The notes under the pieces: model-generated
Told to the model about the DNA's origin: nothing
The model's input: the letters and a program-made list of their open reading frames with translations, nothing else
Databases searched by the model: none
In this document: one piece after another, positions 41-12,121 of the stretch
How the letters are laid out: every line of letters begins with the position of its first letter
Position numbering within the stretch: the stretch's first letter is position 1
Source of the DNA: Akkermansiaceae bacterium
GTDB lineage: Bacteria > Verrucomicrobiota > Verrucomicrobiia > Verrucomicrobiales > Akkermansiaceae
Direction: 5' to 3'
DNA length: 12,999 nucleotides
NCBI GenBank assembly: GCA_029288115.1
Contig: JARFPV010000507.1
Location: 1-12,999, forward strand
Translations under genes and position numbers: made by a program

Positions 41-87
41 ACACTAGACAATCTTCGTCGGCAGCGTCAGATGTGTATAAGAGACAG
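41..87. other. Illumina P5 end, index and Nextera read-1 adapter
   Basis: Bases 55-87 match the 33-nt Nextera/Tn5 read-1 adapter exactly, ending in the 19-bp mosaic end AGATGTGTATAAGAGACAG at 69-87. Bases 41-44 (ACAC) fit the 3' end of the P5 primer, and 45-54 (TAGACAATCT) fit a 10-nt i5 index. The order is that of a finished library molecule, so this is untrimmed adapter joined to the insert at base 88. No biology should be read from it. The mosaic end here is a library reagent, not evidence of a natural Tn5 element. Confidence 0.97.
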
Positions 88-892
88 CCTCAGGATCTTT
101 GATGGCGAGCTCATCTGGTTGTGGCTCACGATCGAGGTTGCTCGCGATATCGTCCTGTCCCGCGGCGGAGGCCACTTGGGAGGCGGTCCAGCCGTGCTCA
201 TTGATCGCGTAGCGGTTGGCGCCACTATCTAACAATGCCTGAACCGTGTCCTTGTGACCTTTTTGCGCAGCGAGCATGAGTGGGGTCATTCCTCCAGTGT
301 GGCGGGCATAGACGGAAGCACCGTAGCTGGTGAGGGTATCGATGGTTTTGTGTCTTCCCTGGGCGGCGGCGTAGAGCAGGGCGGTGTCCAGACTGCTTCG
401 CGAGTAGGGTGCAAGCTCCTCGATACAGCTCGGATGATTGCCATCGACGGCAAGGATGAGGGCGGTGCGTTTTTTGGTATCCTTGAGCTCTGCCTTGGCT
501 CCCTTCCTGAGCAGGTAACGCACCATGGTGTGTTGTCCCTCACGTGCGGCAAGCATCAGTGGAGTGACGCCATCCAGTCCGGGAATGTCGATACCTACCT
601 CCGACTCAAGCAGGAAGGCGACGGACTCTTGTCTGCCTGCACGTGCTGAGAGATGCATGGCGGTCCAGCCATTGTCATCCTTGGTGAGGAGATCCATGCC
701 CTGTTTGGAAAAAAGTTCGAGCACCCGCACATCGCCGTTTTCCGCAGCGCGGAGGAAGTCCGCGGGGGTCGCCTCATACCCTGAAGTCTCCAGGTCCTGC
801 GCCGCCTTTTCCTTTTTATCACCGCATGAGGTCAATAGCAGGCATGCTGTTAGGCATCCGGTCAGCAAGATCGAAAGGTTTCCACATTTCAT
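88..892 (-). CDS. ankyrin-repeat lipoprotein, 3' end missing
   Basis: The product is predicted to be a lipid-anchored ankyrin-repeat protein, probably acting in protein binding in the periplasm or outer membrane. From the chosen ATG at 892 the N-terminus is basic, then hydrophobic, and ends in a lipobox, Leu-Leu-Thr-Ser before Cys. A charged linker follows (GDKKEKAAQD). An in-frame ATG at 904 would add four residues (MIRV); I prefer 892 because it gives a standard type II signal peptide. About six ankyrin repeats follow, with clear helix signatures such as GWTAMHLSARAG, GVTPLMLAAREG, GMTPLMLAAQKG and GWTASQVASAAG. About 268 residues are genuine. The frame then runs into adapter sequence, which adds the false tail VSYTHLTLPTKIV and a false stop at 44-46. 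The true C-terminus is unknown. The gene diverges from galK. Ankyrin repeats do not reveal the binding partner. Confidence 0.85.
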
Positions 893-918
893 AACCCTTA
901 TCATAGCCTGAGTCAGAT

Positions 919-931
919 GGCATTCAATGCC
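919..931. promoter_or_regulatory. hyphenated palindrome between ankyrin gene and galK
   Basis: GGCATT and AATGCC form a perfect 6-bp inverted repeat around one central C, in the 117-base gap between divergent genes. Size and position suit a small operator, but one 13-base dyad of this kind can arise by chance. No regulator gene lies beside it. Confidence 0.3.
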
Positions 932-968
932 GAAACACGTGTCCTCGACGATGATACGAAAGAATTTG

Positions 969-977
969 TGTAATAAT
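969..977 (+). promoter_or_regulatory. possible extended -10 promoter for galK
   Basis: The bases TGT followed by AATAAT resemble a sigma-70 extended -10 element (TGn then TATAAT, five of six hexamer matches). They lie about 33 bases upstream of the galK ATG at 1010. I see no convincing -35 hexamer at the usual spacing, so this is only a candidate. Confidence 0.3.
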
Positions 978-1009
978 GGCTCGCAGAGATCGTCAGATTA
1001 GGTATCCGT

Positions 1010-2218
1010 ATGTATCAGCAACACGACACCATGAGCGACGACAATCCCATATTCGACCAACTCAAAAAAGAGCTCCTTGAGCACTTCGAAAAAATCCACG
1101 GCATGGAGCCGTTTATCATCGCCGTGGCACCTGCGCGTGTGAACCTGATTGGTGAGCATATCGATTATTGTGATGGCTTCGTGCTGCCCGCTGGAATCAA
1201 CCGGCATGTGGTTATTGCGGCGGCTCCCAACGGGACATCCGAGGCGAACCTTCACTCCACCATGCTTCCAGACCAGCCAGCCACGGTGATGCTTGATGAG
1301 CCGCAAACACCGGGTCAGCCGAAGTGGGCTGATTACATTCGCGGGGTGTTTGATGGATTTTGCGACAAGGGTTTCTGGCCACTTCCCGGGTTTGATGCGG
1401 TGATTCACGCGAATATTCCACTAGGTGCCGGGCTTTCCAGCTCGGCCGCAATTGAGGTGGCGGCTGCGACAATGGTGGAAGGTCTGTTAGGTATTGAAAT
1501 TAACCCCAAAAACAAGGCGCTGCTATGCCAGCGTGCGGAACGGAAGTTCGCAGGTGTCCCCTGTGGCATCATGGACCAGTTCGCCTCTGTATTCGCGAAA
1601 AACGATCATTTTGTACTCATCGACTGCCGTTCAGAGGAAGCGCAGCCTATCCCGTTTACAGATAAATCCATCAGTATGGTGATCGCAGACACCAATGTAC
1701 ATCATGAACTGAGTGATGGGGCATACGCGAACCGCAGGAAACAGACAGAGATAGCTCTGTCGATCATTGGGAAGGAATCATGGCGCGAAGTCACCATGGA
1801 TGACCTCGATGCAGTGAAGGAGGAAATGAATGAGGTGGTCTATCGGCGTGCCCGACACGTGATTACCGAGATCGATCGCACCCAGCAGGCGGCGATTGCA
1901 GTTTCGCAAGGAAAGACTGGCGAGGTGGGTGAAATGATGGCGGCTAGTCACCGGTCGTTGCGTGACGATTTTGAAGTCTCTTGCAAGGAACTTGATGCCA
2001 TGGTGGAGATCGCCTGGGATATCGGTATTGATGGTGGTGTGCTTGGGAGCCGGATGACCGGTGGCGGCTTCGGGGGTTCGACCATTACTCTTGTTAGGAC
2101 AGAGAAGGTGGAGGAAGTGATGGCTGAAATGCGATCACGCTACCAAGAGCAAACCGGTATCAAGCCACAGATCTTTTCCACGCGTGCGGTTGATGGCGCT
2201 AGACAGGAGGAGCGCTAG
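1010..2218 (+). CDS. galK: galactokinase
   Basis: Galactokinase phosphorylates alpha-D-galactose with ATP to galactose 1-phosphate, the first committed step of the Leloir pathway, in the cytoplasm. All family marks are present: the N-terminal galactokinase signature PARVNLIGEHIDY (about residues 41-53), the GHMP ATP-binding loop PLGAGLSSSAA (about 136-146), the catalytic Asp in CGIMDQF (about 184-190), and the C-terminal GHMP motif MTGGGFGG (about 348-355). At about 402 residues it is slightly longer than the E. coli enzyme, because of a short N-terminal extension. The ATG at 1010 has an AGG about 10 bases upstream; an ATG at 1031 (MSDDNPIF) is also possible. No galT, galE or transporter is nearby, so the rest of the pathway must be elsewhere. 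The TAG stop overlaps the stop codon of the convergent phosphatase gene. Confidence 0.96.
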   Translation: MYQQHDTMSDDNPIFDQLKKELLEHFEKIHGMEPFIIAVAPARVNLIGEHIDYCDGFVLPAGINRHVVIAAAPNGTSEANLHSTMLPDQPATVMLDEPQTPGQPKWADYIRGVFDGFCDKGFWPLPGFDAVIHANIPLGAGLSSSAAIEVAAATMVEGLLGIEINPKNKALLCQRAERKFAGVPCGIMDQFASVFAKNDHFVLIDCRSEEAQPIPFTDKSISMVIADTNVHHELSDGAYANRRKQTEIALSIIGKESWREVTMDDLDAVKEEMNEVVYRRARHVITEIDRTQQAAIAVSQGKTGEVGEMMAASHRSLRDDFEVSCKELDAMVEIAWDIGIDGGVLGSRMTGGGFGGSTITLVRTEKVEEVMAEMRSRYQEQTGIKPQIFSTRAVDGARQEER

Positions 2219-3801
2219 AGCCCTGACCCGACATCCAGGGCGAATAGGCAAACGTCGTCGTCAAAGTCACCACCGGCAGAATGTCTGCGGGCGTGGTCGA
2301 TCAGGGAGTCCAGGCTGTCATCAATGTTCTCTTTCGATGTGTCCTGGATTTGCTGAATGATATTTTCGAGGCCCAGTTGTTGACCTTCGGCATCCTCCAC
2401 CTCATGCAGGCCGTCGGTGAAGATGACCATGCGGTCGATATCGTCGAGCGAAATGGATTCTGTCGTGTAGGGGCTTTTCGGTATGAGGCCGAGAGCGGGG
2501 TTGGGTTTGCCGTCGCCATGTGTGAGCTGATTGGTCTCGCCCAAGCGGGTGACGATGGGTGCCGGGTGACCAGCGCAGCTGTAGGAGAGGGTGCCTTTTT
2601 TTAAATCGATGACGCAGTAAACAGCGGTGGCGAAAAGGGTGACGTCCGCGCGTTCAAGGATGGATACAAGACCTTCGTTGATACCGTAGAGGAACCACTC
2701 CGGGCTGGTTGCGGAGTCGCGCTCTTTTTCAATCAGCCCGCGAAGCATTGAGACGATGAGTGAGGCGCGCACACCGTGGCCCATGACATCGCATACCAGG
2801 ACGCCAATGCAGTCCTGGGAAATGGGCATGACTTCGTAAAAGTCCCCTGCCATCTCAGAAGCCGGTGTGTATCGGCAGGCAAATGAGACCTCGCGGTCGT
2901 GAGCGCGTAGCACCAGACCCTCAACGCTGCTGGGAAGGAGCGCTTGCTGGATTTGGCGTGCGAGTTGGAGCTCTTCCTCGAAGGCGACGTTCCTCTGTCG
3001 CAATTCCTCAGCTGCATTGGTGAGAAGCCTTTGGGTTTTAACCAGTTTGGTAATGTCACTGGTGATGCCAAAGGTGCCGAGCAGATTACCGTGCCGATCC
3101 AGCCATGGCAGCTTGGTGATTTCCACCCATGTGTCCTCCTTACCGTCCCAGTTCTCACGTTGGATGACGTTGATCTGAGGTTCACGGGTTTCCATGATGT
3201 GGATTTCATCGGCCCGGGCAGTGTCCGCATGAGCTTTGCCAAAAAAATCGTGGTCGGTTTTGCCAACGAGGTCTTCACCGGATTCTTTGCCGAACTTTCT
3301 GGCGATGGAGGTGTTGGCAACCACAAACCTGGACTCCTTGTCCTTGTAGTAAACATTCACCGGGATGTTATCAATCAGCTCGCGCAGTCTGTAGCGCTCT
3401 TCCTCAAGTGATATTTCCGCGATCTTCCTGCGCGAAATATCAATGAATGAACCGACAACCCGCAAGGCTTTTCCCTGATCATCTCTAACAACTACGCCAC
3501 GTATTCTGAACCAGTGCCATTGTCCATCGGGATGGCGGTAGCGGCAGTCAGCAGCGAGGTTATCCGCTGCATCAGGTGAAAGGGCATCCGCGAGAGATTG
3601 TTGAAAATCCTCGAGATCCTCCTCGTGGAGATACTCGGTGGGTTCGGCGATGACATTCGGTGCGGACTCCTTGGGGTAGCCTAACAGTTTGAGGACTCGA
3701 TCCGAATAGTAGATTTCATCTTCTCCCACGAACCAGTCCCAGACGCCTTCATTGGATGCCTGCAACGCAAGCTCGAGCCGATCCTTAGAGTCGCCATCCA
3801 T
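2215..3801 (-). CDS. PAS-PAS-PP2C (RsbU/SpoIIE-type) serine phosphatase
   Basis: This is a cytoplasmic sensor phosphatase of 528 residues. Residues about 8-125 form a PAS domain with a PAC tail (RYRHPDGQWHWFRIRG, then GSFIDISRRK). Residues about 135-253 form a second PAS/PAC unit ending GTFGITSDITKL. A helical linker at about 255-290 ends ELQLARQIQQALLP, the typical lead-in to RsbU-type phosphatases. The PP2C core (about 300-525) has the metal-binding motifs AGDFYE (318-323), CDVMGHG (337-343), FTDGLHE (461-467) and DDDV (514-517). Proteins of this family dephosphorylate anti-anti-sigma factors (STAS domains) in partner-switching systems. No STAS protein or anti-sigma kinase is adjacent, so the target is unknown, and so is the PAS ligand. 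It is the last gene of a minus-strand cluster, 44 bases after the hydrolase gene. Its ATG has no clear Shine-Dalgarno sequence. Confidence 0.93.
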   Translation of the reverse strand: MDGDSKDRLELALQASNEGVWDWFVGEDEIYYSDRVLKLLGYPKESAPNVIAEPTEYLHEEDLEDFQQSLADALSPDAADNLAADCRYRHPDGQWHWFRIRGVVVRDDQGKALRVVGSFIDISRRKIAEISLEEERYRLRELIDNIPVNVYYKDKESRFVVANTSIARKFGKESGEDLVGKTDHDFFGKAHADTARADEIHIMETREPQINVIQRENWDGKEDTWVEITKLPWLDRHGNLLGTFGITSDITKLVKTQRLLTNAAEELRQRNVAFEEELQLARQIQQALLPSSVEGLVLRAHDREVSFACRYTPASEMAGDFYEVMPISQDCIGVLVCDVMGHGVRASLIVSMLRGLIEKERDSATSPEWFLYGINEGLVSILERADVTLFATAVYCVIDLKKGTLSYSCAGHPAPIVTRLGETNQLTHGDGKPNPALGLIPKSPYTTESISLDDIDRMVIFTDGLHEVEDAEGQQLGLENIIQQIQDTSKENIDDSLDSLIDHARRHSAGGDFDDDVCLFALDVGSGL

Positions 3802-3816
3802 ACTTTGACTGAATAA

Positions 3817-3832
3817 CCCCGATTTGGCGGGG
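3817..3832 (-). terminator. short GC hairpin between hydrolase and phosphatase genes
   Basis: CCCCG and CGGGG form a 5-bp stem with a 6-base loop. It lies 13 bases past the hydrolase stop on the minus strand and 15 bases before the phosphatase ATG, and is followed by TTATT. The stem is short and the T-tract poor, so it may attenuate rather than end transcription, or simply act in the 5' leader of the phosphatase gene. Confidence 0.35.
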
Positions 3833-3845
3833 AATCAATCAGGAA

Positions 3846-4565
3846 CTAACCCAGATACTTGTCCAGCCATGCGCAGACGTGCTCTGCCACAAGCTGGTGA
3901 TGATCTTCGAATGAATGAGTCGCGTTCTCGATTTCTACCAGCTCGGATGTGCCTTGAAGCACTGCGATCAGGTCGTGGCTGTCTCTAGGAAACACCACAT
4001 CGTCTGCTGTGCCGTGTAGCAGCAGCCATGGTGCCTTCACTCCCTTGGCAGCATCCAGAACGTTGTCAATGGCGTGCATGTCATCCACATACTTCTGGGA
4101 AAGCGGGCAGCCGTCTTCATCCCACATATTCCCTTGATCGGGTGTGACGTCTCCGAATTCTCTGTCGCAAAACTCCGCCGTATGAACCATCCCGGCGAGC
4201 GAAATGAGAGCGTTGATCCGCTCGTCCCGAGCTGCTGTTAGGGCCCCGACAGCGCCTCCCATGCTGTGTCCGATGTAGGCGATCTTTTTGCCATGGCCAA
4301 CTTGGTCGAGAACAGCTGTTAGGTCGGAGATTTCTTTGGTCACCGTGCTGTCCTGAAAACTACCTTCGGAGTTTCCGTTACCCGAAAACGACATCCGCAG
4401 TGTAGGATAGCCGTGATCCTGTAGTGCCTTTGCCAGCCAGAATAGCAGTGGCCGGTCCTTATCGCCTGTCACGCCATGACCGAGGATGACCAGGCAGTCG
4501 TCGCGCCCTGCATCGTGAAGTTCGGTATCGAGAAGCTCACCGTTTTGGTTTTTGATAGCTGTCAT
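3846..4565 (-). CDS. alpha/beta hydrolase (serine hydrolase of the S33/esterase type)
   Basis: This is a 239-residue cytoplasmic alpha/beta-hydrolase with a complete set of catalytic motifs. The oxyanion-hole segment is LGHGVTG (28-34). The nucleophile elbow is GHSMGG with Ser101. The acid is Asp188 or Asp189 in HGTADD, and the histidine is His217 in ATHSFEDH. An inserted lid region (about 125-175) includes DREFGDVTPDQGNMW. The fold and motifs support ester or amide hydrolysis, but the substrate cannot be read from the sequence. There is no signal peptide. The ATG at 4565 is three bases past the stop of the dehydrogenase gene, and CCTAACA ends one base before the ATG, with no Shine-Dalgarno sequence. 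The tight spacing implies co-transcription with the dehydrogenase and the DOMON-like gene. Confidence 0.9.
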   Translation of the reverse strand: MTAIKNQNGELLDTELHDAGRDDCLVILGHGVTGDKDRPLLFWLAKALQDHGYPTLRMSFSGNGNSEGSFQDSTVTKEISDLTAVLDQVGHGKKIAYIGHSMGGAVGALTAARDERINALISLAGMVHTAEFCDREFGDVTPDQGNMWDEDGCPLSQKYVDDMHAIDNVLDAAKGVKAPWLLLHGTADDVVFPRDSHDLIAVLQGTSELVEIENATHSFEDHHQLVAEHVCAWLDKYLG

Positions 4566-4566
4566 A

Positions 4567-4573
4567 TGTTAGG
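4567..4573 (-). promoter_or_regulatory. CCTAACA word one base before the hydrolase start
   Basis: On the coding strand CCTAACA contains the TAA stop of the dehydrogenase gene and ends one base before the hydrolase ATG. This is one of three copies of a window-wide repeated word that sit directly before a start codon. The function is unknown. Confidence 0.35.
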
Positions 4574-5462
4574 AGGTTCTGCCTTTGAATGTGAGTTCGG
4601 CAACACCGGATTTGTCCAGTTCGCCGATGCCGAGTTCGATCATTTTTCTGTACTGCTCTTCCGTTGCTTCGGAGAGTGGGAGGCTGATTCCTTCTGCCTT
4701 ACCCAGAGCATTGGCGATGCCGCTGTCCTTGGCTGCGTGAGCGGCGGAGAACCAGCATTCGTGGTCACGATCGATCATGTCTTCTGAGTCGGTCTCCAAC
4801 ACGCGTGAGTTGGCTCCTGTCTGGGAAAACACCTCACAGAGCATACCGAGGTCAAGCCCCAGGGCGTCGCCCAAACCAAGTCCCTCGGCGAGCGCGGCTG
4901 TGTTGATGTTCATCACCATATTGACGAGTGCTTTGACTTTCGCGGCTTCACCGGCGTGGCCGATGTAGCGCAGGTTCGTCGAGAGCTGATCCAGCACTTC
5001 CCGGCAGGCGTTGAATCCCTCCTCGCTGCCGCCAATCATCAGGTAGAGGCTGCCTTCGCGTGCCTGGCTGATGCTCGATGCCATACAGGCTTCAAGAGAG
5101 GTGGCTCCGACGAGATCCGCGGCTTTTTCGATCTCAACATGCACGTCAGGAGAAACGGTCGCGCAGTTGATGAAGGTTTTACCACTGGCGTCGACTAACA
5201 GGTTATCCTCCTCATTGAGGAAAATCTCACGCATGGAGTCGTCGTCGGTGACCACAGTGATGATGATGTCTGCGTCCCGGGTAGTTTCAGCGAGTGTGGC
5301 GGCGGCTGTGCAGCCGAGCTCCCCGGCAAGACTTTGTGCGGCCTCAGCATAGACATCATAAACGGCGGTGATGGTGTGGCCGCAGTCGTTCAGGCGGCGT
5401 GCCATGTTGGCACCCATGCGTCCGACGCCTACGAAGGATATTTTTTTTGTCGTGTTACTCAT
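4569..5462 (-). CDS. NAD(P)-dependent beta-hydroxyacid dehydrogenase (3-hydroxyisobutyrate dehydrogenase family)
   Basis: This 297-residue cytoplasmic oxidoreductase belongs to the family of 3-hydroxyisobutyrate dehydrogenase, tartronate semialdehyde reductase and GLYR1. Residues 8-36 are a Rossmann start with GVGRMGANMA. FINCATVSPD (97-106) matches the segment after the cofactor site. EACMASSISQAREGSLYLMIGG (124-145) corresponds to the substrate-binding glycine-rich region, usually APVSGG, here altered. Lys177 in AKVKALVNM aligns with the catalytic lysine of the K-x-x-N-N motif. By that alignment the first Asn is replaced by Val and the second is kept. A second conserved Lys is in HAAKDSGIA (242-250). 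The length is normal. The substrate is not predictable. The ATG at 5462 is four bases past the upstream stop, with CCTAACA ending two bases before it. It forms an apparent operon with the DOMON-like and hydrolase genes. Confidence 0.9.
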   Translation of the reverse strand: MSNTTKKISFVGVGRMGANMARRLNDCGHTITAVYDVYAEAAQSLAGELGCTAAATLAETTRDADIIITVVTDDDSMREIFLNEEDNLLVDASGKTFINCATVSPDVHVEIEKAADLVGATSLEACMASSISQAREGSLYLMIGGSEEGFNACREVLDQLSTNLRYIGHAGEAAKVKALVNMVMNINTAALAEGLGLGDALGLDLGMLCEVFSQTGANSRVLETDSEDMIDRDHECWFSAAHAAKDSGIANALGKAEGISLPLSEATEEQYRKMIELGIGELDKSGVAELTFKGRTS

Positions 5463-5464
5463 TT

Positions 5465-5471
5465 TGTTAGG
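5465..5471 (-). promoter_or_regulatory. CCTAACA word two bases before the dehydrogenase start
   Basis: On the coding strand CCTAACA contains the TAA stop of the DOMON-like gene and is followed by AA and the dehydrogenase ATG. This is the same arrangement as at the next junction in the cluster (4567-4573). No Shine-Dalgarno sequence is present. The function is unknown. Confidence 0.35.
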
Positions 5472-6087
5472 TGGTTGGTTCGTGAAAGGTGAGTCCGCCG
5501 TCGTGAATGCGGACGGGTTGAAAAAGATCCGTCTGGTGAAAGTCCGGTTCGCCCTCCGGGGCTGGTGTTGCTGTTAGAAATCGTTGCTCAGGTGAATCAA
5601 TAATCATCGTTACGTTCATATGGGACTGCGCACCGAAATTTACTCGCGCCTGCAGAATGTCGAGCGGAATTGACGCTGCTGCCATCCACGAGCCATCGGG
5701 TGTTAGATCGCCGAATGTTTTGACTCCTGGCATTTCAATATCCTCTTCATAGGCACGCACGCGTGGTGCGGTGAACTCCGCTCTCCACCACGCGCCATTC
5801 GGTGCGAGGTTGAACTCCAGATAACGGCCCGACTCAGGATCGCTGATAAAGAACTCGGCGACGTCATGTTTCCAGAGTTCCGGGATGAATTTTCCAGGGC
5901 GTGCCTGCGGATGTATCTGGGCGGGTTTTTGGCGTGTTGCTACGAACCAGAAGCTGCCGTGGTCGATCGCCAGCCCAAATGCTCCCGGGACCTCAATCGG
6001 TTCGCCGTACCAGTCCTTTTGCAGCCCGAAAAGCGCCAGATCGAGCTCCCCCCAATTCAGTGGTTGATGTTTTTTCTCGATGAGCAT
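5467..6087 (-). CDS. DOMON/CBM9-like domain protein
   Basis: This is a 206-residue protein that looks like one beta-sandwich domain of the CBM9/DOMON type. The key stretch is ELWKHDVAEFFISDPESGRY followed by LEFNLAPNGAWW (about residues 70-102), the pattern WxxDxxExF then YxEFxxxPxGxW. I associate this version with the DOMON domain found alone or fused to MurB-like proteins in Verrucomicrobia and relatives; that is from memory, not a search. Related domains bind carbohydrate, heme or other small ligands; no ligand is evident here. There is no signal peptide, so it is probably cytoplasmic. It is the first gene of the minus-strand cluster, and its TAA stop lies within CCTAACA four bases before the dehydrogenase ATG. 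The start at 6087 is the first in-frame ATG and lacks a clear ribosome-binding site. Confidence 0.8.
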   Translation of the reverse strand: MLIEKKHQPLNWGELDLALFGLQKDWYGEPIEVPGAFGLAIDHGSFWFVATRQKPAQIHPQARPGKFIPELWKHDVAEFFISDPESGRYLEFNLAPNGAWWRAEFTAPRVRAYEEDIEMPGVKTFGDLTPDGSWMAAASIPLDILQARVNFGAQSHMNVTMIIDSPEQRFLTATPAPEGEPDFHQTDLFQPVRIHDGGLTFHEPTT

Positions 6088-6229
6088 CTGCGGCGGATTC
6101 TGGGTGGCTCACACGGTTTTGCCAAAGCCAAAACACACCTAGTAGGGAGAAAAGTGAAAAAAATTCATGATTACGTGAAATATCCTCGCCAATGCGGCTT
6201 ATTTATGGTGTTAATAAGTCATTCACAAA

Positions 6230-6244
6230 CAGGGTTAATCCCTG
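6230..6244. promoter_or_regulatory. inverted repeat upstream of DUF1287 gene
   Basis: CAGGG and CCCTG form a perfect 5-bp inverted repeat with a 5-base AT spacer (TTAAT), 31 bases before the DUF1287 ATG. It has the layout of a dimeric regulator site, but this is unproven. Confidence 0.3.
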
Positions 6245-6251
6245 ATTCCAC

Positions 6252-6269
6252 AAGCTTTCTAGAAACCTT
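6252..6269. promoter_or_regulatory. 18-base palindrome just before the DUF1287 start
   Basis: The core TTTCTAGAAA (6256-6265) is a perfect 10-bp palindrome. It is flanked by AAG and CTT beyond one C:C mismatch, giving 16 of 18 symmetric positions. It ends six bases before the ATG at 6276. In DNA it could be an operator; in RNA it could fold over the ribosome entry site. Confidence 0.35.
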
Positions 6270-6275
6270 AAATAA

Positions 6276-7013
6276 ATGAACCACATCGAGTACATCGGCC
6301 CAAGACCCCAAAAAAAAGCACGCAAGCCGTGGGGGGGTGGATGGTTGATGATACTACTGGTTGTGGTTGTGGTGTCATTTATAGCCAAACCTTTCATCGC
6401 TGAGCTATGGGCTGACCGAGGCAATCCAACCGAGCTCAAAGTCGAGGAAACCGTCGCCTGGCTTGCCAAGGGAGATAGCTTTGGCAACGAGCTTGCAGCC
6501 GCGGCACTCGAGCGCACCCGCGAGGACGTGACCTACGATCCCGCATACTACAGTATTTCTTATCCCATGGGTGATATTCCCGTAGACAAAGGCGTCTGCA
6601 CAGACGTGGTGGTCCGCAGCTACCGCACGCTGGGGATCGATCTCCAACAGCTTGTCCACGAGGACATGCAAAACAATTTCCGCATCTACCCGCAGATCTG
6701 GGGATTGGAAGGGCCGGACACAAACATCGACCACCGTCGCGTGCCAAACCTGCAGCGCTACTTCAGCAGATTTGGAATCGAGATCCAAATCCCCGAATCA
6801 GGCCCACAGGCTGAGAATTTCAAATACGGCGATGTTGTTGCGTGGCGTCTGCCACATGGAGCAACCCATATCGGAGTCGTTGTCCCCGGACCCGGTGACC
6901 GCCGTGATGAAATGTGGATCGTGCACAACATCGGTTCAGGTCCGAAGTGGGACAACCAGTTGTTCGAGTACCAGATGATCGGTCACTACCGCTTTGACGG
7001 CAGCCGCCGGTAG
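6276..7013 (+). CDS. membrane-anchored DUF1287 protein
   Basis: This 245-residue protein has a basic N-terminus, one membrane helix at about residues 23-41, and a DUF1287 domain filling the rest, predicted outside the cytoplasmic membrane. The family marks are strong: YDPAYYSISYPMGDIP (87-102), GVCTDVVVRSYRTLGIDLQ (106-124), the NIDHRRVPNLQRYF stretch (150-163), and KYGDVVAW, then THIGVV (about 183-202). Cys108 and His198 sit where an NlpC/P60-like papain-fold peptidase would have its catalytic pair, with His153 or His217 as further conserved residues. A cell-wall peptidase or amidase role is an inference; the family remains of unknown function. Most homologues I recall carry a cleaved signal peptide. 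Here FIAKPFIAELWA follows the helix and no clear cleavage site is visible. The ATG is preceded by an AT tract without a Shine-Dalgarno sequence. Confidence 0.88.
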   Translation: MNHIEYIGPRPQKKARKPWGGGWLMILLVVVVVSFIAKPFIAELWADRGNPTELKVEETVAWLAKGDSFGNELAAAALERTREDVTYDPAYYSISYPMGDIPVDKGVCTDVVVRSYRTLGIDLQQLVHEDMQNNFRIYPQIWGLEGPDTNIDHRRVPNLQRYFSRFGIEIQIPESGPQAENFKYGDVVAWRLPHGATHIGVVVPGPGDRRDEMWIVHNIGSGPKWDNQLFEYQMIGHYRFDGSRR

Positions 7014-7036
7014 TTTTTTCGGTGCGGGGTGTTTGT

Positions 7037-8164
7037 TTACCCTGTCACGTCGGCTGAAGTGTTTCCCATGTGCAGGATATCTTTCCACGCTTGCGCACAG
7101 AACAGGCCACGGTGATGAAAAAACAGAACTTGGGCGATGCGCCGGAACACAGGATTCCCCAAGGCGAGGTTATAGAGCGCATTCGGTGGTGAGAGATGGT
7201 CCATCGACCAGCGCATCATACCCTTCACTCCATAGCGAGGAACCATCGCAAGAATGTCTTCCACCGGATCACTGATCTTTCCTTGCAAATAATGGCTGAT
7301 GGAGATTCCGGCGTTGGCTCCCAGCTCAAGAGACGGGTAGATGCCTCCAGCGGTTAGTGGGGACACCATGCCGGCAGCATCACCAAGAAGCATCACCCGG
7401 TCCGTGTACCAATGTTTGAGCACACCGCCGCAGGGAATGAGTCCACCTCTTCTGCCGATCACTTTGGCTTTGCTGAAATCGATCAGCTTGGCGATTTTTG
7501 CTTCAAACGCACGAAGGTCCGGCTTGTGTGGGCTGCGTACGGCGATACCCACTTGGCTGATGCCCACGCCAGGAACAATCCAGCCGATGTAGCCTGGTGC
7601 CAGCTTGGAATCTAGAAACACATGCAGTTTGTCCTGCTCCAGTCCGTCGATTCCCACATACTCAGCTTCGGCGCCCATCAGGAAGTCACGGTTAGAGCTC
7701 AGACCGAATTTGCGTGCGACATTTGAGCGGGCGCCGTCACAGCCCACAAGGAATCGGCTGATTATTCCAGCCTCTGGGAGCAGGACGTTACTTTCTTCCA
7801 TCTGGAACTGGGAAACGTTCTGTGAGAGCCGCACTTCTGCGCCAGCGGATTCTGCCTTTTGCATCAGCCATCGCATCATTCCAGGAGTATCTGTTGCTAC
7901 GAAGGAGTATCCCGGTGAGCTGAGGTCAATCCATTTTCCGTTGGGAGAATAGAGCCGAACACCACTGATATGCCTGCTGAGGTGCGATGGCAGGTTGAGT
8001 AAGTCTGCTGCTTCCTTGACCAGAATCCCGGTGGTTCTGATGTTCGCTCCAGGGCATGGCTTGCGCTCGAGAACCGCTGTTCTCATGCCTTGGGAAGCCG
8101 CCCGACGGGCACAAGCGAGCCCGGCGAATCCAGCGCCAATGATAGTGATGTCGTTTTGTTCCAT
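7037..8164 (-). CDS. FAD-dependent oxidoreductase, geranylgeranyl-reductase-like
   Basis: This 375-residue flavoprotein belongs to the class of geranylgeranyl reductases and aromatic hydroxylases. The N-terminal FAD-binding fold has IIGAGFAGLACARRA (8-22) and ends its second strand in VLER (31-34). GCDGARS (141-147) is the DG motif. LLGDAAGMVSPLTAGGIYPS (259-278) is the GD motif contacting the FAD ribityl chain. GYIGWIVPGVGISQVGIAV (191-209) resembles the YGWxFPKG region of geranylgeranyl reductases, but the lysine and first glycine of that motif are altered. It probably reduces or oxidises a lipid-like isoprenoid substrate; the exact one is unknown. I chose the ATG at 8164 because it places the FAD motif at the usual distance. 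An ATG at 8206 would add 14 residues, but it lies inside an inverted-repeat arm. The gene diverges from the sulfatase. Confidence 0.85.
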   Translation of the reverse strand: MEQNDITIIGAGFAGLACARRAASQGMRTAVLERKPCPGANIRTTGILVKEAADLLNLPSHLSRHISGVRLYSPNGKWIDLSSPGYSFVATDTPGMMRWLMQKAESAGAEVRLSQNVSQFQMEESNVLLPEAGIISRFLVGCDGARSNVARKFGLSSNRDFLMGAEAEYVGIDGLEQDKLHVFLDSKLAPGYIGWIVPGVGISQVGIAVRSPHKPDLRAFEAKIAKLIDFSKAKVIGRRGGLIPCGGVLKHWYTDRVMLLGDAAGMVSPLTAGGIYPSLELGANAGISISHYLQGKISDPVEDILAMVPRYGVKGMMRWSMDHLSPPNALYNLALGNPVFRRIAQVLFFHHRGLFCAQAWKDILHMGNTSADVTG

Positions 8165-8197
8165 ACCAATAGTCTGACGGGGGAATGTGAAAGCATG

Positions 8198-8256
8198 GTG
8201 AAGCAAGGATGAAAAATGCTACCGATCAAAGAACTTGTTCTCTACCCTTGCTTCAC
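8198..8256. promoter_or_regulatory. 11-bp perfect inverted repeat in divergent promoter region
   Basis: GTGAAGCAAGG at 8198-8208 is exactly repeated in reverse as CCTTGCTTCAC at 8246-8256, with 37 bases between the arms. The arm centres are 48 bases apart. This could be a pair of operator half-sites allowing looping between the two divergent promoters, or a stem in a transcript leader. Confidence 0.45.
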
Positions 8257-8271
8257 TAGGGCCTTATCTGA

Positions 8272-8288
8272 GAGGATGAGTCATCCTC
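8272..8288. promoter_or_regulatory. 17-base hyphenated palindrome upstream of sulfatase
   Basis: GAGGATGA and TCATCCTC are perfect 8-bp reverse complements around a single G. The site lies 56 bases before the chosen sulfatase ATG. The tight symmetry is that of a typical dimeric transcription-factor operator. It has no T-run, so a terminator is unlikely. No linked regulator gene is present. Confidence 0.45.
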
Positions 8289-8332
8289 GTGCACAAACAG
8301 GCACTTATCCCTCTCTCGAATCCTCAATTTCA

Positions 8333-8339
8333 CCTAACA
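8333..8339 (+). promoter_or_regulatory. CCTAACA word before the sulfatase start
   Basis: CCTAACA ends five bases before the sulfatase ATG at 8345, where a Shine-Dalgarno sequence would be expected but is absent. It is the third start-adjacent copy of the repeated word in this window. Confidence 0.35.
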
Positions 8340-8344
8340 AAACC

Positions 8345-9880
8345 ATGAAAATAATCGCTGTTCTAACAGTATTCTGCATGACCGCATTCGCCCAGGCAGC
8401 TTCCAAGCCCAATATTGTGCTCATCATGGTTGACGACATGGGCTGGTCGGACATCGGCCCCTATGGAGCGGAAATTATCCAGACTCCACACCTTGATCGG
8501 TTGGCGGCTGAAGGTCTGCGTTTTCGCCAGTTTTATAACAATGCCAAGTGCACCACCACGCGTGCATCGCTTCTCACGGGTCTATATCCGCGCAATGGTG
8601 GCCGTGGGATCGAGATCCTTAACGACCGTATGATCACCCTGGGAGAGGGGATGAAACTGGCTGGTTACAAGACGGGTATCAGCGGCAAGTGGCACAATGG
8701 CAGCCGTGCGCCTCATCGTCCCTTTGATCGTGGTTTCGATCAGTCGTACGGGCTTTGGGATGGTTGTTGTAATTTTTTTGACCCCTCACAGCGTGACCCG
8801 GAATTCAAAGGCGGGCGCGTCCGCTTCTACGGGGAGAATGATAAAAGGATCACCGAGTTTCCCGACGATTTTTACACGACAGATGCCTTCACTGATCATG
8901 CCGTGAAGATGATCAAGGACTTTGCAGGTTCCGGTGATCCATTTCTCGTTTATGTTCCCTATACTGCGCCGCACTATCCGCTCCATGCGAAGCCCAAAGA
9001 CATCGCGAAGTACAAGGGCAAGTTTTCGATGGGCTGGGACGAGCTGCAGAAGCGTCGCTATAACAAAACCGTTGAATTGGGTCTTGTCGATCCGAAGTGG
9101 AAACTACCACCGCGAGATCCTGAGGCAAAACCCTGGGAGCAGGCCGAGAACAAGGGGTGGCAGAATCAGCGAATGGAGGTTTACGCTGCGATGATCGACA
9201 GCGTGGACCAAGGGATCGGCCGTATCATGCAGGCACTCAAGGATGCCGGTGTTGATGACAATACACTGGTTCTGTTTTTGTCTGACAACGGGAGCTGCGC
9301 TGAATCGCCGGGTGGGGAAAACAACACCGCCCACATTCCCGGCCCCAAGGAGTTTTACTCTCACGTGGGCCCGAGTTGGGCGTATGCCCAGAACGCTCCA
9401 TTCCGGAGATATAAGTCACGTATGCACGAAGGGGGTATTGCCACTCCACTAATTGCGCGTTGGCCTGGTGTCGTGCCGAAAAATTCGTTCACCGACCAGG
9501 TTGGCCACATTATTGACTTTCTTCCTACCTTCCTAGAAATGGGTGGAGTTGATTACCCTGAGACCTACAAGGGCAAGGAGGTGATACCCGTGGAGGGCAT
9601 TAGCCTGCTCGGCGTCATCAAGTCGCCAGCCAAAACCATCAAACGTGACGAGCCACTTTACTGGGCTTTTGGTGGTAGTCGGGCGGTGCGCGAAGGTAAT
9701 TGGAAACTTGTCTGGGACCCGCGGGTAAAAAACTGGGAGCTCTACGACATGGCTGCAGACCGCACCGAGATGAACGATCTCAGCAAGTCCAAACCTGAGG
9801 TGGCGAATCGGCTGCAGGCACTCTGGGAAACTTGGGCTAAGCAAACCGGAGTCAAATACAAACCACAGAAGGCAAGATAG
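8345..9880 (+). CDS. secreted sulfatase (arylsulfatase family) with unusual CTTTR active-site motif
   Basis: The enzyme hydrolyses sulfate esters, probably on sulfated polysaccharides or their fragments, outside the cytoplasmic membrane. From the ATG at 8345 it is 511 residues with a signal peptide (residues 1-18, likely cut after AQA). KPNIVLIMVDDMGWSD (21-36) supplies the metal-binding aspartates 30 and 31. The formylglycine site is Cys69 in CTTTRASLLTG, with Arg73. GKWHNG (114-119) and TAPHYPLH (207-214) supply substrate and catalytic residues. SDNGS (313-317) has the metal-binding Asp-Asn. The C-terminal subdomain includes GGSRAVREGNWKLVWDP. The consensus C-x-P/A-x-R is changed at its third position to Thr. 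No sulfatase-modifying enzyme is adjacent. The start at 8345 is chosen over 8216 because it gives the signal peptide. Substrate unknown. Confidence 0.93.
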   Translation: MKIIAVLTVFCMTAFAQAASKPNIVLIMVDDMGWSDIGPYGAEIIQTPHLDRLAAEGLRFRQFYNNAKCTTTRASLLTGLYPRNGGRGIEILNDRMITLGEGMKLAGYKTGISGKWHNGSRAPHRPFDRGFDQSYGLWDGCCNFFDPSQRDPEFKGGRVRFYGENDKRITEFPDDFYTTDAFTDHAVKMIKDFAGSGDPFLVYVPYTAPHYPLHAKPKDIAKYKGKFSMGWDELQKRRYNKTVELGLVDPKWKLPPRDPEAKPWEQAENKGWQNQRMEVYAAMIDSVDQGIGRIMQALKDAGVDDNTLVLFLSDNGSCAESPGGENNTAHIPGPKEFYSHVGPSWAYAQNAPFRRYKSRMHEGGIATPLIARWPGVVPKNSFTDQVGHIIDFLPTFLEMGGVDYPETYKGKEVIPVEGISLLGVIKSPAKTIKRDEPLYWAFGGSRAVREGNWKLVWDPRVKNWELYDMAADRTEMNDLSKSKPEVANRLQALWETWAKQTGVKYKPQKAR

Positions 9881-9894
9881 CGTCGGCAATTCAG

Positions 9895-9929
9895 TCTTGC
9901 TTCTTACCTCTTTCCTCTTGCATCTTACC
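9895..9929. repeat. five tandem degenerate heptamers (TCTTNCH) before holA
   Basis: The 35 bases divide into five successive 7-base units matching TCTTNCH. Units 1 and 4, and units 2 and 5, are nearly or fully identical, giving an imperfect 21-base super-period. The array ends three bases before the chosen holA GTG start. On the other strand it is a purine-rich AGGTAAG-like array. It resembles in kind the short tandemly repeated heptamers described in filamentous cyanobacteria; any relation is only analogy. Confidence 0.6.
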
Positions 9930-9932
9930 TGT

Positions 9933-11021
9933 GTGAGCCAGATCCATGTCATTACCGGTAGCGATGAAGGGACTGTTGCCGAGGAGGCACTGAAGCTCTA
10001 CAATAAACTCAAACCCGACGGGGGTGACGAGTTTTCCCAGGAGGTGATCGATGGCACGGTGGCAAATGCTGACGAGGCGAATACAGCTTGTGGACAGGTG
10101 ATTCAGTCGCTTCAGACGCTGCCATTCTTTGGTGGCGGTAAAACCGTCTGGCTGAAACGTGCTAATTTCCTCGCGAGTGACCGCACCAGCGAGGCTGAAC
10201 TGACGCAAAACGCAGTGGCCGATTTGTTGGATTGTTTGCAGCAGGGATTGCCGGAGGACATCCACTTCATCATCAGTGCCACTGGACTCGAAAATCGGCG
10301 CGCATTTTACAAGTTTCTGAATAAAGAGGCGAGCGTGCAGAGCTTTGATAAGCCGGACGTCTCACGCGACGGATGGCAGGAGCAGGTGGCTGGGATGGTC
10401 CGAAAAAAAGCCGCTGAGCGTGAACTGCAATTTGATCGCGAGGCACTCGATCTTTTTGTGATGCTCGCCGGAGAAGATACCCGTCAGATCAATAGTGAGC
10501 TGGAAAAGATTGATGTGTACCTCGGTGATCGCCGTGACGTCAATGAGGAGGATGTACGCTTGCTTGTGCCACTCAGCCGCGCGGGTGTAGTTTTTGAAAT
10601 TGGAAATGCACTGCAGAAACGTAATGCGTCTCGTGCGATTAAGCTCATCGACCAACAACTCGCCCGCAAGGAAAGTGCTGTGGGTATCTTGCGAGCCTCA
10701 ATCATTCCGACGGTGAGAAACCTGTTCATGGCTTGTGCAGTGAGTGAGGGCCGCAACTTGCCGAGTGGAAATTACCAGTCGTACGCTGGTGCGATCGATT
10801 CATTACCCGAGGCTGAGCGCGCATGGTTACCTCAGAAAAAAGCCGGCGGAGTGAATGCCTACCCGATGTTTCTGGCGAGCCGCAATGCCAAGGGCTTCGG
10901 TGTTGGAAAGCTACGTGATGCCATGGCTTCCTGCCTGGAGGCTGACCGTACTTTGGTCACCACTGCACTCGATCACCGAGTGGTTCTGCACCGCTTGGTC
11001 GCTAACATTTGCACCGCATGA
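9933..11021 (+). CDS. holA: DNA polymerase III subunit delta
   Basis: The delta subunit is the wrench of the clamp loader: it opens the beta sliding clamp so it can be loaded at primed sites. From the GTG at 9933 the protein is 362 residues, beginning MSQIHVITGSDEG, the usual first strand of the N-terminal AAA+-like domain. LPFFGGGKTVWLKRANFL follows at about residues 70-87. The middle region LAGEDTRQINSELEKIDVYL is the strongly conserved HolA helix pair. The C-terminal collar domain has VVFEIGNALQKRNASRAIKL, then a helix resembling ILRASIIPTVRNLF. No Walker A motif is present, as expected for delta. A TTG at 9897 could extend the frame by 12 residues, but that would translate the heptamer array, so I prefer 9933. 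No Shine-Dalgarno sequence is visible. Its stop overlaps the start of the TSUP gene. Confidence 0.92.
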   Translation: MSQIHVITGSDEGTVAEEALKLYNKLKPDGGDEFSQEVIDGTVANADEANTACGQVIQSLQTLPFFGGGKTVWLKRANFLASDRTSEAELTQNAVADLLDCLQQGLPEDIHFIISATGLENRRAFYKFLNKEASVQSFDKPDVSRDGWQEQVAGMVRKKAAERELQFDREALDLFVMLAGEDTRQINSELEKIDVYLGDRRDVNEEDVRLLVPLSRAGVVFEIGNALQKRNASRAIKLIDQQLARKESAVGILRASIIPTVRNLFMACAVSEGRNLPSGNYQSYAGAIDSLPEAERAWLPQKKAGGVNAYPMFLASRNAKGFGVGKLRDAMASCLEADRTLVTTALDHRVVLHRLVANICTA

Positions 11022-11380
11022 AGACGTTCGCCATTTCCGCCCTCATTGGTATTTCCGCTGGCCTGCTGGGTGCGCTTTGTGGCGTCGGTGGCGGGATCGT
11101 TATGGTGCCGGCGTTTGTTGCAGCACTCGGATTTGAGCAAAAAAAAGCAGTCGCCACATCGCTCGCTGTCATCGTTGTTGTCGCCATCATAGCCACCGCG
11201 AACAATGCGCGACAGCCCGGGCTGATCGATTGGCGAGTCGTCGGTCTCGCCGCCGTGGCCGCTGCCTTAGCTGCATGGTTCGGCACCGATCTCATGCACA
11301 AGCTGAGCAACCAGCACCTGACACGGCTCTTCGGTGTAGTGCTGTTAGTTTTCGGCGTGAAAATGCTGTTAGGAAAGTAG
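11018..11380 (+). CDS. half-size TSUP (TauE/SafE, DUF81) permease
   Basis: This 120-residue integral membrane protein has about four predicted helices (about residues 4-36, 44-62, 72-90 and 100-118). The N-terminal family signature is GLLGALCGVGGGIVMVPAFV (about 16-35), and ATANNARQPGLIDWRVV is typical of the following loop. Family members usually have about 250 residues and eight helices made of two homologous halves, and export sulfite, sulfoacetate or other small organosulfur anions. This one equals a single half and would need to dimerise. Its end (LLVFGVKMLLGK) looks natural rather than torn. The ATG at 11018 overlaps the holA TGA in ATGA, which suggests translational coupling. Its TAG stop forms one end of the 11377-11447 inverted repeat. 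The substrate is unknown. Confidence 0.88.
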   Translation: MKTFAISALIGISAGLLGALCGVGGGIVMVPAFVAALGFEQKKAVATSLAVIVVVAIIATANNARQPGLIDWRVVGLAAVAAALAAWFGTDLMHKLSNQHLTRLFGVVLLVFGVKMLLGK

Positions 11381-11447
11381 GACAGCTTTGCAAGCTGTCG
11401 GCAGCCTTGGTGGCATATCCTGCCGATAGCTTGCATAGCTTTCCTAC
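11377..11447. repeat. 28-bp near-perfect inverted repeat between convergent genes
   Basis: The arms 11377-11404 and 11420-11447 match at 25 of 28 positions as reverse complements, with a 15-base loop. The outermost GTAG and CTAC contain the TAG stops of the TSUP gene (11378-11380) and of trmO (11446-11444). The left arm includes a smaller perfect hairpin at 11381-11399 (8-bp stem, 3-base loop TGC). It probably works as a bidirectional terminator. The nested palindromes also recall REP/BIME-type mobile repeats. Confidence 0.75.
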
Positions 11448-12121
11448 ACAAGCGAGCAGCCGAGCACCGCAATGCCACCCTGATCCACCACCCAGCGCAC
11501 ATTGTATCCATCAATCAGGCATCCATACTCCCGTTCATGATCATGCTGCCGGTAGGCAGGCCGCGGGTCGCACGCCAGTGTGTGCTCGATGAGTTTTCTG
11601 GTGGATGATGGAAGTTCTGCATCAGCGCTGTCTGCCCATGTGATAGCCAGCCGTTCCGGTGCCTCTTGTGCAAATCCGCTTGCTGCATTTGGCAGGGAGT
11701 CTGCATAAGGGATATAGGGTTTGATGTCCAAGATGGGTGTGCCATCGACAAGATCAACCCCGCTGAGTTTTAATACAGGTCCTTCTTTGTGATCCTGATC
11801 AATTTTCTCCAGCTTCACGCACGAAAGCCCGATCGGATTAGGCCGGAACGGAGACCTGCTGGCAAAAACTCCAACCTTGTCATTGCCGCCGAGTCGTGGC
11901 GGGCGAACCGTCGGTTTCCAGTCGTCCCTAACAGCCTGATGGAAAATAAAGACGAGCCAGACATGGGAGAACCCATCAAGCCCACGCAACGTGTCTGCAT
12001 TTCGAAACTCAGGTTCAAACACGAGTTCGCCCCACGCCTCGTCGACGAGACCCGATTGTCTGGGAACCCCGAATTTTTCCCCGTAGCAGGTTCTGACATG
12101 GCCGATGGTTTTTACCTTCAT
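11444..12121 (-). CDS. trmO: tRNA (N6-threonylcarbamoyladenosine(37)-N6)-methyltransferase
   Basis: TrmO (YaeB/TsaA/VirR family) methylates t6A at position 37 of threonine tRNAs using S-adenosylmethionine, giving m6t6A. The protein is 225 residues, close to the E. coli length of about 235. Diagnostic segments are LRGLDGFSHVWLVFIFH (about residues 45-61), KVGVFASRSPFRPNPIGLS (about 82-100) and DLVDGTPILDIKPYIPYAD (about 123-141). These are the beta-barrel core and cofactor-binding elements of the UPF0066 fold. The C-terminal region (about 155-225) forms the second domain and ends GGIAVLGCSLV. The ATG at 12121 gives the usual start (MKVKTIGHVRT). It lies 27 bases past the stop of the outer-membrane protein gene, so the two may share a transcript, with a weak 5-bp hairpin (12133-12145) between them. 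Confidence 0.93.
   Translation of the reverse strand: MKVKTIGHVRTCYGEKFGVPRQSGLVDEAWGELVFEPEFRNADTLRGLDGFSHVWLVFIFHQAVRDDWKPTVRPPRLGGNDKVGVFASRSPFRPNPIGLSCVKLEKIDQDHKEGPVLKLSGVDLVDGTPILDIKPYIPYADSLPNAASGFAQEAPERLAITWADSADAELPSSTRKLIEHTLACDPRPAYRQHDHEREYGCLIDGYNVRWVVDQGGIAVLGCSLV

Follow-up and report, generated by a model that had tools for sequence, protein, structure and literature searches.

Only a few dispersed genomic words are understood: Chi, the DNA uptake sequences (DUS) and uptake signal sequences (USS), HIP1, and KOPS. Known uptake sequences are 9-12 bases long and are far more strongly enriched than the word described here. Chi words are 5-8 bases long and vary by group, the Chi of Pseudomonas being over-represented at about one per 3 kb with no orientation bias (PMC5959072); the uptake sequences of Pasteurellaceae are biased to gene termini (PMC2346458); and HIP1, a GC-rich palindrome of 8 bases, is linked to orphan methyltransferases (PMC4390886). 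The stretch studied here (the window) comprises the 12,999 nucleotides of contig JARFPV010000507.1 from an Akkermansiaceae bacterium (assembly GCA_029288115.1), in which a reading made from the letters alone (the sequence-only reading) had pointed to the heptamer TGTTAGG/CCTAACA as far above chance. We found that the enriched unit is the hexamer TGTTAG/CTAACA and not the heptamer, and it is almost certain that this hexamer is a dispersed DNA-level word: it is sharp, non-palindromic, genome-wide and about equally frequent in both orientations, in coding and non-coding DNA.

TGTTAG in the source genome and its relatives

The window is contig C178 of its own genome (G000), a fragmented assembly of 3.17 Mb in 710 contigs that is 81% complete. 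A sample independent of the window was formed from 80 contigs taken at regular contig numbers with C178 excluded (347,620 bases, 280,306 readable); the pooled set used for the codon shuffle and for distances to ATG includes the window. In the 80 contigs TGTTAG/CTAACA ranked first of 2080 hexamers at Markov orders 2, 3 and 4, with 184 copies seen against 47.9, 55.9 and 114.8 expected, which corresponds to one per 1.52 kb of readable sequence. The whole genome holds 1790 copies of TGTTAG versus 1201 of the reversed word, and 671 of TGTTAGG versus 299. Against the maximum-order model (order 5) the heptamer was unexceptional (63 copies against 52.7 expected, 452nd of 8192), because its component hexamers already carry the excess. 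The extended consensus that the sequence-only reading had proposed to look for did not emerge, the flanks showing only a weak preference for T at -1, R (A/G) at +1 and A at +2. The 18 one-base neighbours of TGTTAG stood jointly at 1.00 in G000 (1.00-1.03 across samples) and individually at 0.69-1.29 in G000 at order 2; the highest values elsewhere, also at order 2, were 1.72 for AGTTAG in the congener G013 and 1.59 for TGTTGG in the named pool. No inverted pairing or fixed spacing of the word within 100 bases was preferred in G000 or G013: close pairs were in slight excess in the former (14 versus 7.0, on a length that includes N) and numbered 22 versus 24.6 in the latter.

When synonymous codons were shuffled, TGTTAG was again rank 1 of 2080 hexamers (185 versus 56.6, window included), and with the window removed the summed sense and antisense copies were 167 versus 53.7. 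A count near the codon-aware expectation, which had been named beforehand as grounds for dropping the idea, was thus not obtained in the 80-contig sample, on which, rather than on the whole genome, this comparison was run. The biggest single codon effect was on Leu codons lying between xTG and G, where TTA was used in 80 of 371 cases in G000 and 206 of 823 in G013, compared with 4-6% elsewhere in G000 and 3-7% over the other contexts of both genomes. All five remaining Leu codons gave way to the excess TTA about proportionally, even those that differ from it by two changes; in G013 TTG dropped beyond proportion by one of two baselines, though not by the second. Asn codons mirrored this for CTAACA: between xCT and A they were AAC in 47 of 53 (G000) and 60 of 66 cases (G013), compared with 64-75% in other contexts before A.

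Raw enrichment in the codon shuffle was higher for sense than for antisense copies. Every codon able to make TGTTAG by synonymous choice was scored per opportunity as an odds ratio (OR), a test in which a word spanning several codons is counted repeatedly, so that its z-scores are inflated. The sense/antisense ORs were 2.42/2.27 in G000, 2.67/2.05 in G013, 2.17/2.17 in G007, 1.68/1.63 in G011 and 2.51/1.89 in the named pool; genomes low in the word gave 1.32/1.13 (G003-G006 pooled), 0.89/0.54 (G008) and 1.69/1.15 (G012), and control words gave 0.57-1.41 in G000 and G013. Non-coding copies were enriched too (16 versus 8.5 in G000, 56 versus 19.6 in G013). In G013, the one species in which replication strand was compared, with the leading strand inferred from GC skew, sense enrichment was 4.7-fold in leading and 5.8-fold in lagging genes and antisense enrichment 2.0-fold and 2.3-fold; the strand bias that the sequence-only reading had thought worth checking did not appear there. 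Since sense and antisense copies are similarly enriched, non-coding copies are enriched as well and the replication strand makes no difference in G013, the signal acts on DNA itself and is hardly, if at all, polar with respect to transcription, and a protein, codon-pair or mRNA cause is unlikely. The earlier view that no protein motif lies behind the word, and that it is a dispersed DNA word built from otherwise rare codons, was borne out.

The distribution of the word was scored in 67 genomes from whole-genome counts as the OR (TGTTAG x CGTTAC)/(TGTTAC x CGTTAG). Genomes with an OR of at least 2.3 and a TGTTAG/TGTTAC ratio of at least 1.3, cut-offs chosen after the data had been seen, were called word-bearing. 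There were 19, of which 13 bear the label of the window's own genome or of its genus, family or order and six are named Roseibacillus, Haloferula and Luteolibacter genomes, which we take to belong to the order Verrucomicrobiales. The top scores were those of Roseibacillus persicicus (9.2) and Haloferula BvORR071 (8.0). None of the 19 outgroups (12 from the class, 7 from the phylum) qualified, their ORs being 0.62-1.97 apart from G040, whose 3.9 comes from a mere 62 copies. In samples of single genomes TGTTAG ranked first in G007 and G013, first or second in G011 and fourth in G022; its density in G013 was one per 1.35 kb.

The word is thus present in many, not all, of the Verrucomicrobiales examined, and some congeners have it weakly or not at all. 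ORs within the genus were 1.27-1.88 for G003-G006, G008 and G009, and 2.06 for G012. The TTA effect was missing in the sampled parts of G008 (1/63) and G012 (7/96), although G012 retained a weak overall excess of TGTTAG (26 versus 14.6). G003-G006 may carry a weak form of the word, as their small samples gave 6 versus 2.4 in G005, 12 versus 2.3 in G006 and a pooled OR of 2.44 (1.40-4.28). Absence in congeners may reflect loss or lack of gain. Replacement of TGTTAG by another sharp word was looked for in 71-84 kb each of G003-G006, G008 and G012, and was rejected, since the top words reached only 1.7-2.5-fold.

In Persicirhabdus (G188) all four NGTTAG words were enriched in a 17 kb sample, in which Leu was TTA, when followed by G, in 15 of 37 cases after TG and 11 of 46 after other G, and in 5 of 114 when not followed by G; the whole genome has 2691 copies of CGTTAG. 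CGTTAG was also raised in G193 (2088 versus 703 CGTTAC). Two single loci showed an extra word beside TGTTAG, CTGCTAGA in L215 and CTGATAGA in L212. Enriched TAG-type words in L212, L215, L171 and the G022 sample (CTGATAGA, CTGCTAGA, GACTAC/GTAGTC) could be dialects or separate words.

Candidate readers and possible functions of the word

Thirty-eight genomes were scanned for proteins that could read the word: 19 word-bearing, 15 word-minus, G023 and G188 with an intermediate or broadened word, and G192 and G193, in which TGTTAG was not counted. ComEC was found in all 38, word-bearing or not. The PF01555 methyltransferase family had matches in 31, among them 11 of the 15 word-minus genomes, and no match in two word-bearing genomes, G022 and G014, which are 96% and 72% complete. 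PF07669 methyltransferases were found in 24 genomes, with no match in 6 of the 19 word-bearing ones, five of these six being incomplete assemblies. Methylation was one role offered by the sequence-only reading; as a general cause, methylation by an enzyme of either family is contradicted, with the limits that several of the genomes lacking a match are incomplete and that other families, Type I included, were not searched. A conserved PF01555 frame of about 280-310 amino acids, possibly an orphan methyltransferase, was noted at positions 7281-8000 of contig C689 in G000 and in most congeners.

A PDDEXK_1 domain in a frame of at least 900 amino acids (900-1010 observed), here called AddB-like, was present in 32 of the 38 genomes; G002, G003 and G005 had shorter PDDEXK_1 frames, and no AddB-like frame was found in G012, G016 and G188. 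Eighteen of the 19 word-bearing genomes had a frame of at least 900 amino acids and the 19th one of 746. The best NCBIfam matches of three such frames were AddB-type models, below the curated cut-offs. The AddB-like proteins of word-bearing and word-minus congeners were 58-69% identical (four sequences), and a sequence search of solved structures returned chance-level matches only (best E 0.16). RecC was found in two genomes, G012 and G188 (loci L249 and L250), both without an AddB-like frame, which looks like a replacement of AddAB by RecBCD. Judged by phyletic pattern, none of the candidate readers ComEC, PF01555, PF07669, RecC and PDDEXK_1/AddB followed the word cleanly. Probably a sequence-specific DNA-processing protein keeps TGTTAG above chance, and we infer that selection or recombination-driven enrichment maintains it.

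The mechanism that we tentatively prefer, with a probability of roughly 30 per cent, is that TGTTAG serves as a Chi-type signal. Broken DNA ends would be opened by a helicase-nuclease, which most of these species would have as an AddAB-like pair, and on reading TGTTAG this enzyme would switch from degradation to recombination, so that own DNA would be repaired and unmarked DNA degraded. Chi is favoured because it fits best in length, asymmetry, sharpness, density and species specificity. As would be expected of such a signal, the word is short, non-palindromic and over-represented beyond codon bias, and a frame taken as AddB-like, its identity compared with NCBIfam in three cases with matches below cut-off, is present in word-bearing genomes. 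Both RecC genomes that lack an AddB-like frame depart from TGTTAG, which is weak in G012 and broadened to NGTTAG in G188. That TTA gains about proportionally on all the other Leu codons speaks against one mutational route.

Several observations weigh against a Chi-type signal. AddAB is not enough by itself, since AddB-like frames of at least 900 amino acids also occur in 11 of the 15 word-minus genomes. Nor is it needed everywhere: Persicirhabdus, which has RecC but lacks an AddB-like frame, shows a strong GTTAG effect. In G193 an AddB-like frame occurs together with raised CGTTAG, so that the broadened word is not confined to genomes with RecBCD. The coincidence with RecC concerns two genomes and is not significant. 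Column patterns in AddB do not single out the word-bearing species, and as a discriminator they were discarded (14 columns, compared with 5-37 for other splits of five sequences). No orientation bias was seen, and the leading-strand bias that is common in Chi, though neither universal nor defining, was not seen in G013, the genome compared; this does not exclude Chi, because the Pseudomonas Chi has no such bias either (PMC5959072). Taken together, an AddB-like frame is found wherever standard TGTTAG enrichment was scored, and it is not sufficient for a GTTAG word or, as Persicirhabdus shows, necessary for one.

It is also possible, if doubtful, that TGTTAG marks an undescribed genome-wide system of self-recognition or DNA processing in Verrucomicrobiales, present or absent within one genus, with species dialects (TGTTAG, NGTTAG, perhaps TGNTAG) and a reader of its own that is not AddAB, ComEC or one of the two methyltransferase families.

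We consider it unlikely that TGTTAG is a DUS/USS-like word, preferred by the competence machinery and spread by uptake and recombination. The copies are indeed dispersed, in several frames and both orientations, the word is weak or absent in some relatives, the NGTTAG of Persicirhabdus and the extra words at L215 and L212 resemble dialect-like drift, and ComEC is universal; but ComEC is equally present in word-minus genomes, the words differing by one base are jointly not enriched, and 6-8 informative bases with a background of about one per 5 kb would discriminate poorly. Among the matches listed in our literature search, there was no report of sequence-specific uptake in Verrucomicrobia.

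That a DNA methyltransferase, methyl-directed mismatch repair or both maintain the word, up to a saturation of about one site per kb as modelled for HIP1 (PMC4390886), seems improbable as well. The density is near one per kb, the word is low or replaced in some relatives as HIP1 is (same source), and a conserved PF01555 frame of about 285 amino acids is common in the genus; TGTTAG is, however, non-palindromic, and the patterns of PF01555 and PF07669 given above do not follow it.

The chance is slim that the word is bound, without polarity, by a protein that organises the nucleoid or the chromosome, which would suit its genome-wide spread, about equal orientations and indifference to replication strand in G013, but for which there is no candidate protein and no preferred spacing up to 100 bases. 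Nor do we give much weight to a functionless mutational or repair bias (hotspot or coldspot). Coding and non-coding DNA are affected alike and some neighbours are mildly low (TGCTAG 0.69, TGTGAG 0.75; G000, order 2), but no single neighbour is short enough to account for the roughly 136 extra copies in G000, the 18 neighbours are jointly not depleted and Leu codons yield TTA about proportionally. The one version that would fit is a general shielding of precisely this hexamer from mutation.

A codon-pair, translation or mRNA signal acting through rare TTA codons, a role in translation having been suggested earlier, is very improbable, since antisense ORs are near the sense values in G000, G007 and G011 and non-coding copies are enriched, even though TTA in the xTG_G context is the largest effect, raw sense enrichment exceeds antisense and sense stays somewhat higher per opportunity in G013 and the named pool.

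Copies in the window and other sequence features

The 11 copies of TGTTAGG lie exactly where the sequence-only reading had placed them, three of them on the minus strand. Its random expectation of 1.6 was too high, as dinucleotide shuffles averaged 0.59 copies and, in 200 runs, never exceeded 3. It had counted about seven further copies of the hexamer, mostly followed by A; there are eight (19 TGTTAG in total), and five of them are indeed followed by A. In the list below gene names are by-eye readings of translated open reading frames (ORFs), and conservation refers to the hexamer in loci L149 and L150.

848..854, plus strand: TGTTAGG, antisense in an ankyrin-like ORF; exact match
1485..1491, plus strand: TGTTAGG, sense in a galactokinase-like gene (CTG TTA GGT); hexamer kept in L149 and L150
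2092..2098, plus strand: TGTTAGG, sense in the galactokinase-like gene (GTT AGG frame); hexamer kept in L149
3680..3686, minus strand: TGTTAGG, sense in a PAS/SpoIIE-like gene; hexamer kept in L149
4236..4242, plus strand: TGTTAGG, antisense in an alpha/beta-hydrolase-like gene; not kept in L149
4317..4323, plus strand: TGTTAGG, antisense in an alpha/beta-hydrolase-like gene; not kept in L149
4567..4573, plus strand: TGTTAGG where two minus-strand genes meet, TTA being a minus-strand stop codon; not kept in L149
5465..5471, plus strand: TGTTAGG where two minus-strand genes meet, TTA being a minus-strand stop codon; not kept in L149
8333..8339, minus strand: TGTTAGG, five bases 5' of the likely start of a sulfatase-like gene
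11367..11373, plus strand: TGTTAGG, sense and close to the end of a gene (CTG TTA GGA); not kept in L150
11927..11933, minus strand: TGTTAGG, sense within ORF 11444-12121 of the minus strand (GTT AGG frame)
229..234, minus strand: TGTTAG, next base A
3485..3490, minus strand: TGTTAG, next base A
5195..5200, minus strand: TGTTAG, next base T; kept in L149
5572..5577, plus strand: TGTTAG, next base A; kept in L149 and L150
5701..5706, plus strand: TGTTAG, next base A
8363..8368, minus strand: TGTTAG, next base A
11002..11007, minus strand: TGTTAG, next base C
11343..11348, plus strand: TGTTAG, next base T

The 19 hexamers compare with 8.5 expected (P 0.0014), a density above that of the 80-contig sample, which is no surprise in a window chosen for the word. 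Likewise, the suggested Haemophilus-like density of one heptamer per 1.2 kb holds for the window and fails genome-wide. Conservation, counted on few sites, was 5 of 11 against L149 (equal-GC hexamers 0.27) and 2 of 10 against L150 (0.11). The galactokinase search matched mostly Akkermansiaceae and other Verrucomicrobiales, with UBA8040 closest at 90%.

At 4567-4573, 5465-5471 and 8333-8339, CCTAACA ends 1, 2 and 5 bases 5' of likely start codons. A start-codon or promoter signal was rejected for want of a clear peak in the pooled sample, in which a weak excess is still possible: before the ATG of long frames CTAACA occurred 28 times at 0-19 bases and 16 times at 20-39, and TGTTAG 19 and 13 times.

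Adapter remnants were noted in the window (44-904) and the sampled G000 contigs, where AGAGACAG, CTCTTATA, TATACACA and poly-C runs were enriched; the three words fit what we take to be the Nextera mosaic end, and the ORF at the left end of the window's contig presumably closes in an adapter-like tail. Thirty of the 80 sampled contigs contain N. GGTACC/GTACC words were strongly depleted in the codon shuffle of the G000 sample with the window (AGGTACC 1 versus 24.6), which suggests restriction-site avoidance. The G013 sample (L121-L125, L129-L148; 500 kb) contains a dispersed family in which 9-mers such as AACCCAACA, CCCAACAGG and CCAAAACCC occur 29-32 times.

Significance and comparison with known words

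The open-access literature was searched for TGTTAG/CTAACA and for uptake, methylomes and over-represented words in Verrucomicrobia, and among the matches listed no such word was found in titles or the starts of abstracts. The present work adds a word that is sharp and independent of codons, in an order that includes named strains (Haloferula, Roseibacillus, Luteolibacter, Persicirhabdus), and its presence and absence within one genus makes word maintenance open to a comparative test. If TGTTAG is a Chi, it would be, to our knowledge, the first AddAB signal proposed for Verrucomicrobiales; otherwise the word indicates a DNA-reading system as yet unknown.

With KOPS and other polar chromosome words TGTTAG shares shortness and dispersal but, in G013, not replication polarity. 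Like HIP1 of cyanobacteria it is genome-wide at about one per kb and low or replaced in some relatives; unlike HIP1 it is no palindrome, and PF01555 and PF07669 do not track it. The likeness to DUS/USS lies in the dispersal in both orientations, the dialects and the absence from some relatives, whereas TGTTAG is short and its flanks past -1/+2 are near-uninformative, so that the long motif typical of uptake words is missing. Known Chi words are G-rich (GCTGGTGG, AGCGG, GCGCGTG; PMC5959072), in which respect TGTTAG differs, and its recognition by AddAB is putative. Like the Chi words of RecBCD and AddAB, TGTTAG falls within 5-8 bases and is non-palindromic, over-represented, frequent and specific to its group.

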